Part shown: piece after piece, positions 34,143-42,827 of the stretch
Layout: each line of letters begins with the position of its first letter
Numbering within the stretch: position 1 is the stretch's first letter
NCBI GenBank assembly: GCA_026936105.1
Contig: JAIXKI010000031.1
Location: forward strand, 153,740 to 217,739
Source: Chitinophagales bacterium
Lineage (GTDB): Bacteria; Bacteroidota; Bacteroidia; Chitinophagales; Chitinophagaceae
Reading direction: 5' to 3'
Length of the DNA: 64,000 nt
The notes under the pieces: model-generated
The model's database searches: none
Told to the model about the DNA's origin: nothing
The model's input: only the letters and a program-made list of their open reading frames with translations
Program-made: the position numbers and the translations under genes

Positions 34143-37100
34143 ATGATTAAATTATGGCGCCATTCAATGACCTTTAATGAAGATTCGAGGGTAAAAATTC
34201 CTGCAATCGTGCATCTGACACGATTGGGATTTACTTATGTGCCTAAGTTTGGCATTACTAATCTTCATGCAGACACTAATATTTTCAAAGACCTGTTTAA
34301 ACAAGGACTTTCAAAGATTAACGGAACTGAGTATTCGGACAGTGAAATTGAAACTTTCCTTTCTGAACTCAATATCCAGCTGGACAATTCAGACCTTGGA
34401 AAAGCATTTTATAAAAGCTTGCAAGGTGACTTTACTTGCAAACTGATTGACTTAGAGAATTTCGACAACAATCTTTTTCATGTTGTAACCGAACTGACTT
34501 ACAAAAATGACGAAGAAGAATTCCGACCTGACATTATTTTGCTCATTAACGGAATGCCTTTGGCTTTCATTGAAGTAAAGAAACCGAACAACCGTGAAGG
34601 AATTTTAGCGGAACGAAACCGAATCAACACCCGATTCAAAAATCCGAAGTTCAAAAAGTTCATGAACATTACTCAGTTGTTGGTTTTCTCCAACAATCAG
34701 GAGTATGACGAAGAAAACATCACACCCATTCAGGGAGCATTTTACGCAACACCCGACCCCGAACATGTAAACTTCAACTGTTTCAGAGAGGAAGACAATT
34801 CAGTAATTCACAATGTTCCGCAAGAGGACAGCGAAATAGAAAAACAAATACTGCTCGACAACAACATTGTTTCCATTCTTGGAACAACGGAATATGAAAC
34901 TGCAAAGGAACTCAACTCCCCTACCAATCGGGTTTTGACTTCGCTGTTTAGCAGACAACGCTTTAAAACTTTGCTTCGCTATGGCTTTGCTTATGTGAAC
35001 ACAGTTACCAACGGAATAACAAAGATTGAAAAGCACATCATGCGTTATCCGCAATTGTTTGCGTCTTTAGCAATCGAGAAAAAGTTAAGTGCAGGAGTTA
35101 AAAAAGGAATCATATGGCATACACAGGGAAGCGGAAAAACCGCTTTGGCTTACTATAATGTATACTACCTGAAAGACTATTATCAGAAACAAAATGTAAT
35201 AGCCAAGTTCTATTTTATAGTTGACCGTTTGGATTTAGCCACTCAAGCCAAAAATGAATTTGAAGCAAGGGGCTTGAAAGTTGAAATGGTAAGTTCCAAA
35301 GATGATTTCATTAAAAACATCAGAACCGCAGGAGCAACAGCAGGAAACACAGGTGCTCAAACCATCACGGTGGTAAACATTCAAAAGTTTTCGGCTGAAT
35401 CCATTTCACAATCTGCCGACTATGATTTGAATATTCAACGGATTTATTTTTTAGATGAAGTTCACCGAAGCTATAATCCGAAAGGTTCTTTCCTATCAAA
35501 TTTAATTGCATCAGACAGACAAGCCGTTTTGATTGGCTTAACTGGCACACCGCTTATTTCACAAGATTATAAGAGCAAGGACATCTTTGGCGATTACTTC
35601 CATAAATACTACTACAACAAATCTATTGCAGACGGCTACACGCTGAAACTTTTGAGAGAAGCCATTGAAACCAAATTCAGGGCTGAAATCAATCAGGTTT
35701 ATGATGAAATTGTAAAGCAAGGGGAGTTTACAAAAAGCCAAATTTTTGCTCATCAGAAATTTGTTGAGCCATTGGTGGATTACATCATTACTGACTTCAA
35801 GAAAAGCAGAGTGTTGCACAACGACCAAAGTATTGGCGGTATGATTGTTTGCGACACTTCCGACCAGGCGAAAATGATTTTTGCTGAAATTCAGAAATAC
35901 AATGAACGTCTGGAATCGCAGCACTCAGTAAACCAAGAGCCACAATCCAATTATAGTATTGCAGCCGAACCAAGAGAGAGTTACTTATCGCCTGAATTAG
36001 CTCCCATTTCAGCCGCTTTGATTTTGCATGATGTGGACACCAAAGAAATCCGTAAGGAACATCAAACCGATTTCAAACAAGGTAAAATTGATTTGTTGGT
36101 GGTTTACAATATGCTGCTTACAGGATTTGATGCCAAGCGACTGAAAAAGCTTTACCTGACCCGTGTTGTAAAAGAACATAACCTTTTGCAGACACTCACA
36201 AGGGTAAACCGACCTTACAAAAATTTCAAATACGGCTATGTGGTTGACTTTGCAGACATCCGCAAAGAGTTTGACAAAACCAACAAGGAATATTTTAAAG
36301 AATTGCAGCAGGAATTGGGTGACGAGACCAAAAACTATTCTAACCTTTTCAAATCAGCAGATGAAATAGATCAGGAAATTCAGGAAATCAAAGAGAAGCT
36401 TTTCCTGTATGATTTTTCAAACCTTGAAGATTTTCAGAAAATAGTCAGCCAGATAACCGACAAGAAGGAGATCACCGAACTGAAAAACTGCCTGGAGAAC
36501 CTGAAAAACTTATACAACATCATCAAAATAATGGGCTACACCGAGCTGTTAGATAAGTTCTCGTTTGACAGGGTGAACAAGTTGTATTATGAAGTGACCA
36601 ACCGGATTGATATCATTAACCTGAAAGAGAACTTAGAAAACGCATCGGACAACACCAATTTACTGAACATAGCACTGGAGAAAATGCAGTTCACCTTTAG
36701 GAAAATTGCCACACATGAATTGCAGATTGCCGACAAATTCAGAAGCGAACTGGAGCGGGCAAGAGTGGAACTGGAATTGAATTTTGACAAGAAAGATCCG
36801 CATTTTATTTCATTGTTTGAAGAGCTGAAACGGATCTTTAAGAAAAAGAATATCGAGGAACTGACTTCCGAGGAAATGGATGAAGCCACGCAAAAACTAA
36901 AAACGATTTACTCAGAGGCACACTCGCTTAACAACAAAGATGCAATGCTGGCTGCCAAATATGAGAACGACACCAAATTTGCCCGCATTCACAAACGCAT
37001 CAAAGAACACAACATGAATGTGTTGAACAGCGATTTGGCATTACACGAAACTTTGCTATTCATTAAACATGAAACCGATAAAACGGTAGTAAACAATCAG

Positions 37101-37250
37101 GCAATACTGAACAATCAGGACTATTTTGCCGAAGCTACCAAACGAACGATTCTGGAAACTTTGGAAGACAAAGGCATCCGCGACCTGAATGTGGTTCACT
37201 TTTTCAACAAAGCTTTGGTCAATGAATATTTGTATCAAAGAGCTATTTAG
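34143..37250 (+). CDS. hsdR: Type I restriction endonuclease subunit R
   Basis: 1035 residues. The N-terminal nuclease domain has the PD-(D/E)XK motif as P129-D130 and E144-x-K146 (FIEVKKPN). The motor has Walker A TQGSGKT (327-333), the Walker B box DEVH (438-441) and LTGTP (467-470), the set needed for ATP-driven translocation before cleavage. The C-terminal helical part binds the methylase core. The start is taken at 34143, and M9 (34167) is a fair alternative. It is the first gene of a co-directional island. A GxxExxY cassette separates it from hsdM, so expression of hsdM may no longer depend on this promoter. Confidence 0.95.
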   Translation: MIKLWRHSMTFNEDSRVKIPAIVHLTRLGFTYVPKFGITNLHADTNIFKDLFKQGLSKINGTEYSDSEIETFLSELNIQLDNSDLGKAFYKSLQGDFTCKLIDLENFDNNLFHVVTELTYKNDEEEFRPDIILLINGMPLAFIEVKKPNNREGILAERNRINTRFKNPKFKKFMNITQLLVFSNNQEYDEENITPIQGAFYATPDPEHVNFNCFREEDNSVIHNVPQEDSEIEKQILLDNNIVSILGTTEYETAKELNSPTNRVLTSLFSRQRFKTLLRYGFAYVNTVTNGITKIEKHIMRYPQLFASLAIEKKLSAGVKKGIIWHTQGSGKTALAYYNVYYLKDYYQKQNVIAKFYFIVDRLDLATQAKNEFEARGLKVEMVSSKDDFIKNIRTAGATAGNTGAQTITVVNIQKFSAESISQSADYDLNIQRIYFLDEVHRSYNPKGSFLSNLIASDRQAVLIGLTGTPLISQDYKSKDIFGDYFHKYYYNKSIADGYTLKLLREAIETKFRAEINQVYDEIVKQGEFTKSQIFAHQKFVEPLVDYIITDFKKSRVLHNDQSIGGMIVCDTSDQAKMIFAEIQKYNERLESQHSVNQEPQSNYSIAAEPRESYLSPELAPISAALILHDVDTKEIRKEHQTDFKQGKIDLLVVYNMLLTGFDAKRLKKLYLTRVVKEHNLLQTLTRVNRPYKNFKYGYVVDFADIRKEFDKTNKEYFKELQQELGDETKNYSNLFKSADEIDQEIQEIKEKLFLYDFSNLEDFQKIVSQITDKKEITELKNCLENLKNLYNIIKIMGYTELLDKFSFDRVNKLYYEVTNRIDIINLKENLENASDNTNLLNIALEKMQFTFRKIATHELQIADKFRSELERARVELELNFDKKDPHFISLFEELKRIFKKKNIEELTSEEMDEATQKLKTIYSEAHSLNNKDAMLAAKYENDTKFARIHKRIKEHNMNVLNSDLALHETLLFIKHETDKTVVNNQAILNNQDYFAEATKRTILETLEDKGIRDLNVVHFFNKALVNEYLYQRAI

Positions 37251-37253
37251 AGT

Positions 37254-37276
37254 TTAACCACAGAGTTACACGGAGT
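37254..37276 (+). repeat. Left terminal inverted repeat of the GxxExxY cassette
   Basis: 23 bp running from TTAACCACAG to ACACGGAGT, four bases after the hsdR stop. It is the perfect reverse complement of 37723-37745. A second near-identical copy lies in direct orientation at 37281-37303. Confidence 0.9.
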
Positions 37277-37280
37277 GGGT

Positions 37281-37303
37281 TTAAACACAGAGTTACACGG
37301 AGT
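37281..37303 (+). repeat. Second left repeat copy
   Basis: This is a direct copy of the repeat at 37254-37276, differing at one position (AAACACAG for AACCACAG). It ends 5 bases before the GxxExxY start codon, so it also forms the leader of that gene. Confidence 0.85.
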
Positions 37304-37308
37304 AGATT

Positions 37309-37689
37309 ATGAATTTTACAGAGATTAACCATATAACTGAGCAGATTTTGAAATGTGCTTTTAAGGTACATTCTGAATTGGGTCCGGGGCTTTTGGAAAG
37401 CGCTTATGAAGAATGTCTATACTATGAATTGAAACAATCAGGGCTGTTTGTTGAAAAGCAAAAGGCATTACCGCTGGTTTATCATGAAGTGAGGCTGGAT
37501 GCAGGATACAGAATTGACTTATTGGTGGAGAATAAGGTGGTGATTGAAATAAAAGCTGTGGAAGCGTTTACAGATGTACATACTGCACAACTGCTTACTT
37601 ACCTTAAACTATCAAAATGCAAAATCGGATTACTTTTAAATTTTAATGTAGCATCGCTAAAAAATGGAATTAAACGATTAGCCAATTAA
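37309..37689 (+). CDS. GxxExxY protein (PD-(D/E)XK-like)
   Basis: 126 residues, the family's usual length. The naming motif is GLLESAY (G..E..Y), and the predicted nuclease core shows D in RIDLLVENK and ExK in VIEIKAVEA. The family is small, often multicopy within a genome and of unknown function. A nuclease role is only a fold-based prediction. The gene lies between hsdR and hsdM. It is enclosed by inverted repeats that begin 4 bases after the hsdR stop and end 27 bases before the hsdM start, which suggests it moved in as a unit. Confidence 0.88.
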   Translation: MNFTEINHITEQILKCAFKVHSELGPGLLESAYEECLYYELKQSGLFVEKQKALPLVYHEVRLDAGYRIDLLVENKVVIEIKAVEAFTDVHTAQLLTYLKLSKCKIGLLLNFNVASLKNGIKRLAN

Positions 37690-37722
37690 CCCTCTGTGTT
37701 ACTCTGTGAAACTCTGTGCAGC

Positions 37723-37745
37723 ACTCCGTGTAACTCTGTGGTTAA
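37723..37745 (-). repeat. Right terminal inverted repeat of the GxxExxY cassette
   Basis: 23 bp, a perfect reverse complement of 37254-37276. Just left of it (37690-37722) are decayed copies of the same unit (CTCTGTGTTACTCTGTGAAA). No clear target-site duplication was seen outside the pair. Confidence 0.9.
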
Positions 37746-37772
37746 TAAGTGTAACTCTCTAAAAAAACAAGC

Positions 37773-39413
37773 ATGACAAAACATTTAGAATACACACAAA
37801 AAACAAAAGACCTGATAGACGGGCTAAAAACCGTTTGCAGTAATTACGGGTTGGCAAATTCTGGTAATGAATACAAAATCATTACGGAAGTTTTTCTCTA
37901 CAAATTTTTGAACGATAAATTTCTGCATGAAGCACGGAACGCCAACAAGAAACTGAAAGACAGCAAAAACATTGAAGCCGACATTCAGAGAATGAGTGAC
38001 AGCGACTATGAATGGATGCTGGAGAAAATCGGGGAAAGAAGTGCCAAACTGCAAAAGCATCATTTCATCAGTGCCTTGTTCAACAAGCAGAATGACGAAA
38101 GCGAAGAAAAGTTTTTTGAACGCTTCGACCGCACTTTGATTGAAATTGCCGACCTGAACATCAAACTGTTTTCGGTAGCTACCATTGACAAAGAACGCAT
38201 CCGTTTATTTGACCGCCTTTCGCCTTATATTATTGAAAGCAATCAGAAAACACCTTTCTGTAAAGCCATTATCAACAAACTGGTAGCGTTTAGTTTTGAA
38301 CCGATTTTTGAAGAAAAGTATGATTTCTTTTCTACCATTTTTGAATACCTGATTAAGGACTACAACAAAGACAGCGGACAATATGCCGAGTATTACACAC
38401 CGCCAGCGGTGGCTAAAATTATGGCGAAAATATTGGTGCCAAAAGAAACGCATAACGTAACGCTATACGACCCCGCAGCAGGTTCAGGTAGTTTGTTGCT
38501 GGCATTGGCACATCAGATTGGCGAAGACAAATGCACCATTTATTCGCAGGATATTTCGCAAAAATCATCCGAGTTTCTTCGTTTGAATTTGATTTTGAAT
38601 AATCTGGTGCATTCGCTGCATAATGTGATAAAAGGTAATACACTTACCAATCCTTACCATGTAAACGATGCAAAAACCGATTTGAAAAAGTTTGTCTACA
38701 TCGTAAGCAATCCGCCTTTCAAAACCGATTTCAGCGATGACCGTGAAACTTTAGCCAGCGACCAACATAAGAAACGATTTTTTGCAGGTGTTCCGGCTAT
38801 TCCAAACAAGAAGAAGGAATCCATGGCGATTTATCAGGTGTTTTTGCAGCATATCATTTATTCGCTTGATGAAAAAGGTAAAGCAGCCATAGTAGTTCCA
38901 ACAGGTTTTAATACGGATAAGAACGGAATTTCACCTACCATACGTAAAAAGATTGTAGATAGTAATTGGCTGCATGCAGTAGTTCAAATGCCACCGCACA
39001 TTTTTGCCAACACAGGAACAAATGTTTCAGTCATATTTATTGACAAAAGCCGAAAGTCGGATAAAGCAATTTTGGTTGATGCAAGTAAACTTGGAACGAA
39101 AGTAAAAGAAGGTAAAAATCAAAAAACGCTATTGAGCAGTGATGATGAGAACAAAATCATTGAAACAATAAATAACTTACAAAACATTGAAGGTTTCTCA
39201 ATTATCCTTGACACCGATAAAATAAAAAGTAAGAAATACTCATTTGCAGCAGGTCAATACTTTGAAACTAAAATTGAGTATAGCGAATTGAGCCCTGATG
39301 AATTTGAAGAGGTTTTAGTAACCAGTAAAGAAAATTTAGAAAGCATGTTCATGGAAAGTGAAAAGCTTGAAAAGACCATTCTAAAAAACCTCAAATTGCT
39401 TTCTTATGAATAG
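37773..39413 (+). CDS. hsdM: Type I DNA methyltransferase subunit M
   Basis: 546 residues. An N-terminal helical domain (about 1-170) contacts the specificity subunit. The adenine-N6 methylase core follows, with YTPP (208-211), the AdoMet-binding DPAAGSGS (233-240) and the catalytic NPPF (313-316). The order of motifs is that of gamma-type N6-adenine methylases. Its stop overlaps the hsdS start by 8 bases, so the two are translationally coupled. It protects host DNA and joins the restriction complex. Confidence 0.96.
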   Translation: MTKHLEYTQKTKDLIDGLKTVCSNYGLANSGNEYKIITEVFLYKFLNDKFLHEARNANKKLKDSKNIEADIQRMSDSDYEWMLEKIGERSAKLQKHHFISALFNKQNDESEEKFFERFDRTLIEIADLNIKLFSVATIDKERIRLFDRLSPYIIESNQKTPFCKAIINKLVAFSFEPIFEEKYDFFSTIFEYLIKDYNKDSGQYAEYYTPPAVAKIMAKILVPKETHNVTLYDPAAGSGSLLLALAHQIGEDKCTIYSQDISQKSSEFLRLNLILNNLVHSLHNVIKGNTLTNPYHVNDAKTDLKKFVYIVSNPPFKTDFSDDRETLASDQHKKRFFAGVPAIPNKKKESMAIYQVFLQHIIYSLDEKGKAAIVVPTGFNTDKNGISPTIRKKIVDSNWLHAVVQMPPHIFANTGTNVSVIFIDKSRKSDKAILVDASKLGTKVKEGKNQKTLLSSDDENKIIETINNLQNIEGFSIILDTDKIKSKKYSFAAGQYFETKIEYSELSPDEFEEVLVTSKENLESMFMESEKLEKTILKNLKLLSYE

Positions 39414-40688: not shown

Positions 40689-41177
40689 ATGGCTAAGAAT
40701 GAACTAAAAGATAAAGCAAAGGCTCTTGACAATTTCTTCATTGCCATGAAGGAACTTAGAGAACAGAATATTCTAATCAATAAGAAAGACTTTACTTGTC
40801 AAATTGGTGAATGGCTGGTTGAGATGATTTATGAGGGTAAGAGAGCAATCAGTGGTATTCAAAAAGGATGGGATGTTGATGTGAAAGGTAAACACATTCA
40901 GGTGAAAGCCCACGCAAAAGCGGAAACCAATAATGCCAAGTTCTCAGCAGTGGATAAGGATTCAACAGAGCGAATTGATGAACTGATAATTGTGGTTTTT
41001 ACTTTTGACTATAAGTTGAAAGCTTTTTACAAGGTGCCATGGAATATCGCCTTGCCACTGATTAAGTTAAGAGGTAAGAAAACCCCAAGAAATGAGATTA
41101 CTTGGAGTTCGATTAAAGCATATAAAATCGAATTGAAACAACTTCCACATCAGGAAATTGTTTCTTTATTTATGTAA
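40689..41177 (+). CDS. PD-(D/E)XK-like accessory protein (DUF6998-like) after hsdS
   Basis: 162 residues, cytoplasmic. A helical N-terminus leads to GEWLVEMIYEG (E41), then GWDVDVKGKHIQVKAHAK with D62 or D64 and Q71-x-K73. This is the arrangement of a PD-(D/E)XK nuclease fold, here with Q in place of the usual acid. The sequence resembles proteins filed as DUF6998, recalled rather than checked. It begins 2 bases after hsdS, so it is very likely made together with the restriction system. It could be an extra nuclease, a regulator or an anti-restriction balance, and the sequence does not decide. Confidence 0.75.
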   Translation: MAKNELKDKAKALDNFFIAMKELREQNILINKKDFTCQIGEWLVEMIYEGKRAISGIQKGWDVDVKGKHIQVKAHAKAETNNAKFSAVDKDSTERIDELIIVVFTFDYKLKAFYKVPWNIALPLIKLRGKKTPRNEITWSSIKAYKIELKQLPHQEIVSLFM

Positions 41178-41190
41178 TTATCTTTATGCC

Positions 41191-42321
41191 ATGAGAAATG
41201 AAGTAAATGTAAACAACAACATGCTCACCTGGGCTATTACCCGGGCAGGGTATGATGTGCCTGCATTTGCCGAAAAATTTCCTAAAATATTGGAGTGGCT
41301 CGAAGGACAAAAGAAGCCTACTGTAAAGCAGTTAGAAGAATTTTCCAAGAAAGTTTACCTGCCTTTTGGTTATTTGTTTTTGCCACAGCCACCACAAGAA
41401 AGACTCCCAATTCCTTTTTTCCGCACCAACGGAAACCAAGGAGACCGCATCAGTATCAACGTGTATGATACTATTTTGCTTTTACAGCAAAGGCAGGATT
41501 GGTTGAAAAACCATTTACAGGACAATGATTTTCAGCGTTTGCCTTATGTAGGTAAATTTAGAAATAGCAATGATGTAAATGCCATAGTTGCGGACATTCG
41601 CCAAACCCTGCAATTACCTGAAAATTGGGCAAGTCAATTCAGAACATGGCAGGAAGCTCAAGACCATTTGGTTCTGCATATTGAAGACAAAGGAATCATT
41701 ACCATATTCAACGGAATAGTTGAAAACAACACACATCGCCCAATTCCTGTTAATGAGTGCAGAGGTTTTGTTTTGGTAGATGAATATGCTCCATTCATGT
41801 TCGTAAACAGTTCCGATTTCAAATCTGCTCAGATGTTCACCATTGTGCATGAGTTAGCTCATATTTGGACAGGGCACAGTGCAGGTTTCGATTTCAGAAG
41901 ATTGCAACCAGCCAACGACCCGATTGAAATTCTTTGCGATAAAGTTGCTGCTGAATTTTTAGTCCCTGCACAGGAGTTTGATGAAGTATGGAATCACAGA
42001 CCAAATAATTACGCTTATGCTTCCCGATATTTCAAAGTAAGTGAAATTGTAATTGCCCGCAGGGCATTAGACACAGGCAAAATCAGCAGACCACAGTTTT
42101 TTGATTTCTATGAAGATTATTCCAATCGGGAATTTGCAAAAAAAGAAAGTCAAGGCTCTGGTGGCGACTTTTACGCAACAACCAAAAAGCGTATCAGTAT
42201 CACATTTGCCAGCCATGTTAATCAGGCTGTAAAATCCGGTAGTTTATTATATCGTGATGCCTATAAACTTACGGGCTTAAAAGGCGACACGTTTGAAAAT
42301 TTCTTCTCTAAACACTTGTAG
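41191..42321 (+). CDS. Xre-ImmA/IrrE protein (HTH plus zinc metallopeptidase)
   Basis: 376 residues from the ATG at 41191. An upstream ATG overlaps the previous gene and is not favoured. The N-terminal part (about 10-65) is an Xre-type DNA-binding domain with ILEWLEGQKKPTVKQLEEFSKK. The second part is an ImmA/IrrE peptidase with HELAH (H220, E221, H224) and the later ILCDKVAAEFLVPA segment for the third ligand. Such proteins cut repressors to switch on genes, or act as antitoxins. It lies 5 bases before a PIN-like DUF4411 gene, a pairing known from predicted toxin-antitoxin modules. Confidence 0.88.
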   Translation: MRNEVNVNNNMLTWAITRAGYDVPAFAEKFPKILEWLEGQKKPTVKQLEEFSKKVYLPFGYLFLPQPPQERLPIPFFRTNGNQGDRISINVYDTILLLQQRQDWLKNHLQDNDFQRLPYVGKFRNSNDVNAIVADIRQTLQLPENWASQFRTWQEAQDHLVLHIEDKGIITIFNGIVENNTHRPIPVNECRGFVLVDEYAPFMFVNSSDFKSAQMFTIVHELAHIWTGHSAGFDFRRLQPANDPIEILCDKVAAEFLVPAQEFDEVWNHRPNNYAYASRYFKVSEIVIARRALDTGKISRPQFFDFYEDYSNREFAKKESQGSGGDFYATTKKRISITFASHVNQAVKSGSLLYRDAYKLTGLKGDTFENFFSKHL

Positions 42322-42326
42322 CCCGA

Positions 42327-42827
42327 ATGCCGGTATATGTCTTAGATAGCAACTTTTTTATTCAGGCTCATCGGTTCCACTATCCGATAGACGTTGCTGC
42401 GGGATTTTGGAATAAGGTTCGACAATTGGCAGAAGAAGGCAGAGTTATCAGTATTGACAAGGTAAAGAAAGAGCTTTACGACAAAAACGATGCACTTGAA
42501 GACTGGTGCAGAAATAATTTACCCGAGGACTTTTTCAAAGACACATCAGTAGTAATGGGTGCTTATGCACAGGTAACGGCTTGGGCAATGTCGAGAAGCG
42601 GACATTACTTACCAAATGCATTAAATGAATTTCTGAATGCAGACGAAGCAGATGCTTTTCTTGTGGCTTATTGCCTTGCTGACAACGCTAACAGATTTGT
42701 AGTTACACAAGAAGTAAGCGAACCAAACAGACAGAATAAAGTTAAAATACCAGATGCTTGTGTTGCTTTGAATGTTTCGTATGTAAACACAATAGAAATG
42801 TTCAGACAATTAGGAGAAACGTTTTAG
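42327..42827 (+). CDS. DUF4411 PIN-like protein (probable toxin)
   Basis: 166 residues. The start YVLDSNFFIQAHR (D7) and the later acidic positions E49, D109 (DEADAFLVAY) and D143 (IPDACVAL) match the metal-binding set of a PIN ribonuclease fold. DUF4411 proteins are predicted RNA-cutting toxins. It is the last gene of the island and follows the Xre-ImmA/IrrE gene by 5 bases. That protein is the expected antitoxin or regulator. Toxicity is inferred from family and context. Confidence 0.85.
   Translation: MPVYVLDSNFFIQAHRFHYPIDVAAGFWNKVRQLAEEGRVISIDKVKKELYDKNDALEDWCRNNLPEDFFKDTSVVMGAYAQVTAWAMSRSGHYLPNALNEFLNADEADAFLVAYCLADNANRFVVTQEVSEPNRQNKVKIPDACVALNVSYVNTIEMFRQLGETF

Follow-up and report, generated by a model that had tools for sequence, protein, structure and literature searches.

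RAYT genes are reported to lie always between two inverted REPs, to be vertically inherited, and not to have been seen on plasmids (PMC2817692, PMC8049555). The Coxiella IVS is a 428-nt element within the 23S rRNA, in which an S23 ORF is held in a stem-loop (PMC4990558). Short inverted-repeat elements, many of them gene-less, are also found among MITEs and non-autonomous IS. Integron cassettes carry a single 3′ attC, unlike the GxxExxY cassette described here, whose gene stands between two arms in inverted orientation. In open-licence PMC full text, we found no description of repeats at the flanks of GxxExxY genes (TIGR04256/PF13366), of the ends of the cassette, or of relatives lacking the gene, and an earlier account elsewhere is possible; this operon-inserting kind of cassette, widespread across bacterial phyla, is apparently undescribed.

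The window (the whole 64,000-nt stretch of Chitinophagales DNA that was analyzed) holds a GxxExxY gene between hsdR and hsdM, as the original prediction had proposed from the letters alone and as both profile matches (TIGR04256/PF13366) and the hsd neighbors bear out (Table 1). The three genes run in one direction, with hsdS also a neighbor, and the cassette begins 2 nt after the hsdR stop codon. The arms leave the GxxExxY gene no room for a promoter, and it is probably expressed as part of the hsd operon. The inverted repeat had been described as perfect and 23 bp long; it is perfect, but its length is 24 nt (37254-37277, TTAACCACAGAGTTACACGGAGTG, with 37722-37745). The second direct copy proposed on the left was found, as were the decayed copies on the right, one at 37700-37718 (89%) and another, overlapping, at ~37691-37709. 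The cassette is best delimited, by DNA similarity, as running from TTTAACC to GGTTAA. Pattern searches of the cassette's own genome, allowing up to three mismatches, returned no second copy of the repeat, which speaks against the outside partner transposase with matching ends that had been envisaged. The lack of another genome copy had also been named beforehand as evidence against mobility; it holds in the own genome, and mobility is nonetheless retained because other genomes have the same cassette at different loci. Downstream of the hsd genes (41158-42827), we noted an IrrE-like (Peptidase_M78) gene beside a DUF4411 gene, possibly a toxin–antitoxin-like pair.

Table 1. Parts of the GxxExxY cassette and its operon neighbors, in window positions.
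Feature	Position	Strand	Basis or remark
hsdR, upstream operon gene	34143..37250	+	Pfam HSDR_N, SWI2_SNF2, ResIII
Whole cassette, ~493 bp, TTTAACC ... GGTTAA	37253..37745	+	Ends of DNA similarity with L058 and L060 (unrelated loci); shared end consensus
Left outer arm with first word array, CACAGAG-TTA-CACGGAG	37253..37278	+	Perfect 24-nt inverted repeat with 37722-37745
Second copy on the left, in direct orientation, 93% identity	37279..37305	+	Repeat comparison
GxxExxY gene, 126 aa, predicted PD-(D/E)XK nuclease	37309..37689	+	Profile matches, alignment, structure model
Inner decayed right copies of word array	37691..37719	-	2-3 mismatches
Right outer arm, perfect inverted match to left arm	37722..37745	-	Repeat comparison
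hsdM, downstream operon gene	37773..39413	+	N6_Mtase, TIGR00497

The encoded protein matches TIGR04256 (GxxExxY; E 3e-46, 156.4 bits against a curated cut-off of 35) and, as its only Pfam match, PF13366 (PDDEXK_3; E 8e-44). Its motif reads G25xxE30xxY33 ... D70 ... E80xK82 ... H91xxQ94xxxY98, and in an alignment of 41 sequences G25, G27, E30, Y33, D70, E80, K82, and N111 are invariant, with H91, Q94, and Y98 nearly so. A sequence search of solved structures gave weak, implausible matches only. The structure model is confident (pLDDT 95.8), and the solved folds nearest to it are those of Cas4, Bax1, lambda exonuclease, AdnAB, and HsdR (best E 3e-3). The alpha-beta core with a D ... E-x-K active site that characterizes the PD-(D/E)XK class is present in this model, and we confidently assign the protein a RecB/Cas4-like PD-(D/E)XK fold and predict it to be a nuclease. 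A search of 61 related genomes detected GxxExxY genes in 41 of them, with several to a genome, and we know of no function for these genes.

Though it could be taken for a one-off oddity of a restriction–modification (RM) operon, the arrangement proved to be family-wide, occurring in many operons and several phyla. We assembled flanks from the relatives in the genome search and from 80 further loci (63-88% protein identity) in named Bacteroidota and Chlorobi-related genomes, and computed an inverted-repeat score between the 160-nt flanks of each gene. A score of at least 12 was reached by 58% of 121 GxxExxY loci, compared to 4.9% of 326 neighbor genes and 6.7% of mismatched flanks, so the inverted flanks of GxxExxY genes are not due to chance. 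The flanks are built of words such as CACAGAG, CGCAAAG, CACAAAG, CGCAATGG, and CACAGAT in inverted arrays, and the 7-nt family word C[AG]C[AGT][AG]AG has a left-flank density of 1.65 per 110 nt and, read in the inverted sense, a right-flank density of 1.87; the value for control DNA is 0.065, which makes the enrichment 25-fold. Left and right arms share 13.0 6-mers within loci and 5.8 between loci (0/2000 permutations). Repeats of this kind also border the Bacteroides, Bernardetia, and Sphingomonas genes, and the Gemmatirosa copy has a hairpin of such a repeat next to it; in Treponema, Prevotella, and Fusobacteria, the flanking repeats are weaker or different. No relatives were found in phages or viral contigs, nor in a distant search of E. 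coli genomes starting from a Sphingomonas copy, and GxxExxY matches were present on only 8 of 72,556 plasmids.

In comparisons of window-like cassettes at unrelated sites, and of other close pairs, DNA similarity usually extends from TTTAACC to GGTTAA, which argues that the gene and its arms moved as a unit of ~493 bp to unrelated operon sites; the alignments of a few pairs (L120/L129, L100/L106) run past the repeat ends. Movement as a unit is well supported on these alignments, as is the small mobile cassette of the original prediction, since similarity is usually bounded by the repeat ends and, as described below, the word tracks the protein. For the suggested comparison of empty and filled hsdR-hsdM junctions, homologous junctions in two genomes (G202 and G005) lack the cassette and have spacers of ~-4 and +3 bp. 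The L038 site is too heavily rearranged in the sister species to serve as a clean empty counterpart. Of 84 loci that have both neighbors within 400 bp, 70 run in the direction of both and 2 against both. The fit is snug, with medians over 34 loci of 10.5 nt from upstream stop to arm and 18 nt from arm to next ORF, the start of the latter being a longest-ORF call. The contexts include leuB, argF, nuoFG, hemW, gmd-fcl, ABC-transporter, arsC-arsB, fabD-fabG, and radA genes. As in the original prediction, no target duplication was found: across 68 loci, flush direct repeats of at least 5 nt were not in excess of the shuffled expectation. Insertion into pre-existing hairpins was considered and rejected, inverted repeats in the outer flanks not being in excess at 44 clean loci. 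One cassette (L129) does lie inside a second, unrelated palindrome of ~22 nt; a general preference for such sites was not found.

We consider it reasonably probable that the window holds one of a set of widespread small mobile cassettes belonging to a RAYT/REPIN-like system that employs a PD-(D/E)XK nuclease. The unit has entered the hsdR-hsdM junction, with its gene oriented like the rest of the operon. The GxxExxY protein would recognize the word arrays as DNA, a form of recognition proposed because mismatches between the arms show no wobble bias, and would cut at or near them. Cleavage and subsequent host repair or recombination would then copy the hairpin, rarely with the gene, making the GxxExxY nuclease the putative mobilizing enzyme.

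The hemW site of Flavobacterium provides a view of one insertion site in several states, in that some spacers are filled, others contain a short hairpin but no gene, one (L313) is free of any hairpin, and some are occupied by other genes. A hemW tree shows the filled state on deep branches, alternating with the hairpin-only state among close species; ancestral filling is likely but not proven, because support is weak on many branches of the tree and recombination of hemW itself is possible. Median dN/dS is 0.119 in the 15 filled orthologues, compared to 0.055 for hemW. By this measure, the GxxExxY orthologues at the site are demonstrably under purifying selection, and the cassette can be inherited vertically once in place. 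The arms are also more conserved (identity 0.76 and 0.71, the right-arm value being lowered by two imperfectly cut sequences, L202 and L208) than the inner spacer (0.54) or third codon positions (0.665) in the same orthologues. The words of the gene-less hairpins at the hemW site are mostly unlike those of the cassette there.

Hairpins may instead be copied by other host or element machinery, by slippage, or by template switching, with the gene a passenger or a regulator in the loop, an account that we place on the unlikely side. Of 395 Bacteroidia genomes, 15 contain the window's word, CACAGAGTTACACRGAG (a reversed control pattern gave 0 matches), and only 2 of its ~22 distinct places there have a GxxExxY gene, the others being gene-less, as a passenger gene would have it. 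Hairpins of this word class are abundant, related words reaching tens to more than 150 copies per Flavobacterium genome, and the presence or absence of the hemW-site cassette makes no difference to hairpin number (median 39 vs. 43 per genome, p 0.68), which again favors a passenger and lends no support to mobilization in trans. GxxExxY paralogues within a genome are at most 67% identical in the best pair (11 genomes), and no recent transposition was seen, since within-genome copies are never close.

Against a passenger stands the specificity of the vocabulary to the protein family. As a control, we measured 24 loci of S23 four-helix-bundle genes drawn from a search that covered the own genome as well as its genus and family and further families within the order, a set that shares some genomes with the GxxExxY set but is unmatched to it genome by genome. 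The S23 flanks are inverted too (46% of the 24 loci scored at least 12), but the vocabulary differs in these cassettes, most of which come from related genomes within the order: the GxxExxY word occurs at S23 genes only 0.08 and 0.21 times per 110 nt, with two on both sides in no locus, and S23-type words occur 0.73 times per 110 nt at S23 genes vs. 0.10 at GxxExxY genes. Words also co-vary with the protein clade at non-orthologous sites. Repeat similarity rises with protein identity when pairs with homologous neighbors are excluded (Mantel r 0.36, 0/1000 permutations), and window-like proteins (78-85% identity) at unrelated sites have repeat words in common. As far as sequence comparison can tell, the repeat word belongs to the protein and not only to the genome. 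The invariant active site and the purifying selection on the Flavobacterium hemW orthologues likewise argue against a mere passenger. Regarding the S23 genes themselves, the search of the own genome (G000) gave 14 matches to the family, of which some contain internal stops, and the family is thus multicopy here too. In four genomes, S23 genes with inverted words lie upstream of the start of a similar aminotransferase-like gene (L322, L323, L325, and L332), which suggests a common S23 insertion site.

An account at the RNA level, which we regard as distinctly unlikely, would treat the cassette as 23S IVS-like, with arms that pair in the transcript and are cut by RNase III; tolerance in mRNA would then explain the location and orientation in operons. 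The orientation bias (44:4 when each site cluster is counted once), the strong stem predicted for the arms (z -5.4), and a size and anatomy that match the Coxiella IVS (PMC4990558) agree with this account. Mismatches between the arms, however, are not biased to G-U wobble (91 to 89), the fold of the encoded protein resembles that of a DNA nuclease, and the cassette has no match in Rfam, while the orientation can also be explained by operon expression and the avoidance of polarity.

That the gene is a type I RM accessory acting with hsdR and hsdM, its repeats being regulatory, is barely credible and was rejected on the spread of contexts. In its favor, the two genes adjoin the cassette here and some other copies are apparently beside type I RM genes; against it, the cassette also sits in leuB, argF, nuoFG, hemW, and further non-RM contexts, and two of the homologous hsdR-hsdM pairs read at the junction carry no cassette.

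For the RAYT/REPIN-like system with its own nuclease, we counted, among the comparative evidence, the bounded similarity, the co-variation of word and protein, the matching arms, and the specificity of words relative to S23, together with the empty junctions, the hemW-site states, the purifying selection, and the conservation of arms above spacer. The invariant active site, the RecB/Cas4-like fold, the lack of wobble bias, the absence of matches in phages, and their scarcity on plasmids point the same way. Counted against it were the independence of hairpin number from the hemW-site cassette, the lack of close within-genome copies and of a target duplication, the mostly differing hairpin words at hemW, and the alignment overruns.

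In both RAYT/REPIN systems and GxxExxY cassettes, a small gene lies between inverted repeats, the same repeats are scattered as gene-less hairpins, and orthologues long keep their place; RAYTs are reported as unseen on plasmids (PMC8049555), and GxxExxY matches are scarce there. The enzymes differ, RAYT being a Y1 HUH protein (IS200/IS605-type) and GxxExxY a PD-(D/E)XK protein with no HUH assignment, as do the repeats, REPINs being GTAG-tagged palindromes and the GxxExxY repeats arrays of 7-nt words. In the own genome, the window's word is found only at the cassette, in place of the many gene-less copies of a RAYT/REPIN system. Unlike RAYTs, the GxxExxY gene and its repeats moved as a unit to unrelated sites and show a strong operon orientation. 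GxxExxY cassettes thus resemble RAYT/REPIN systems but are not members, because their enzyme is not of the HUH type and gene and repeats travel together.

With the 23S IVS, the cassette shares a length of ~0.4-0.5 kb and one short ORF between inverted arms, in the sense direction of the host transcript (PMC4990558), and S23 genes in the relatives have the same inverted-word design outside rRNA. The differences on the GxxExxY side are another fold, protein-coding operons, other words, and no sign of an RNA pairing constraint; the cassette here lies at an hsdR-hsdM site and encodes a PDDEXK_3 protein, where an IVS would be a 23S rRNA insertion with an S23 ORF. MITEs and non-autonomous IS are similar in form, but neither a target-site duplication (68 loci) nor a transposase with matching ends (own genome) was found for the GxxExxY cassette, and its coding form is a PD-(D/E)XK protein.

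Possible, though short of probable in our judgment, is the broader proposal of a new class of mobile element with GxxExxY proteins as its enzymes, in which a stand-alone RecB/Cas4-like PD-(D/E)XK nuclease with its own word code would spread hairpins and cassettes through operons across phyla, and S23 cassettes would form a second class of the same design with another code. If true, this would provide a PD-(D/E)XK counterpart to RAYT/REPIN and place the old S23/IVS puzzle in the same architectural class. GxxExxY genes exist as several divergent copies in many genomes, and a cassette that can be delimited, along with a family repeat code, makes mobility and DNA recognition testable.

Finally, we noted an 85-bp intergenic repeat with small hairpins that is present in many copies, some clustered, in the window's genome and genus (L038:2850-2934; in G000, C9:545080, C9:545254, and C28:236669-238670).
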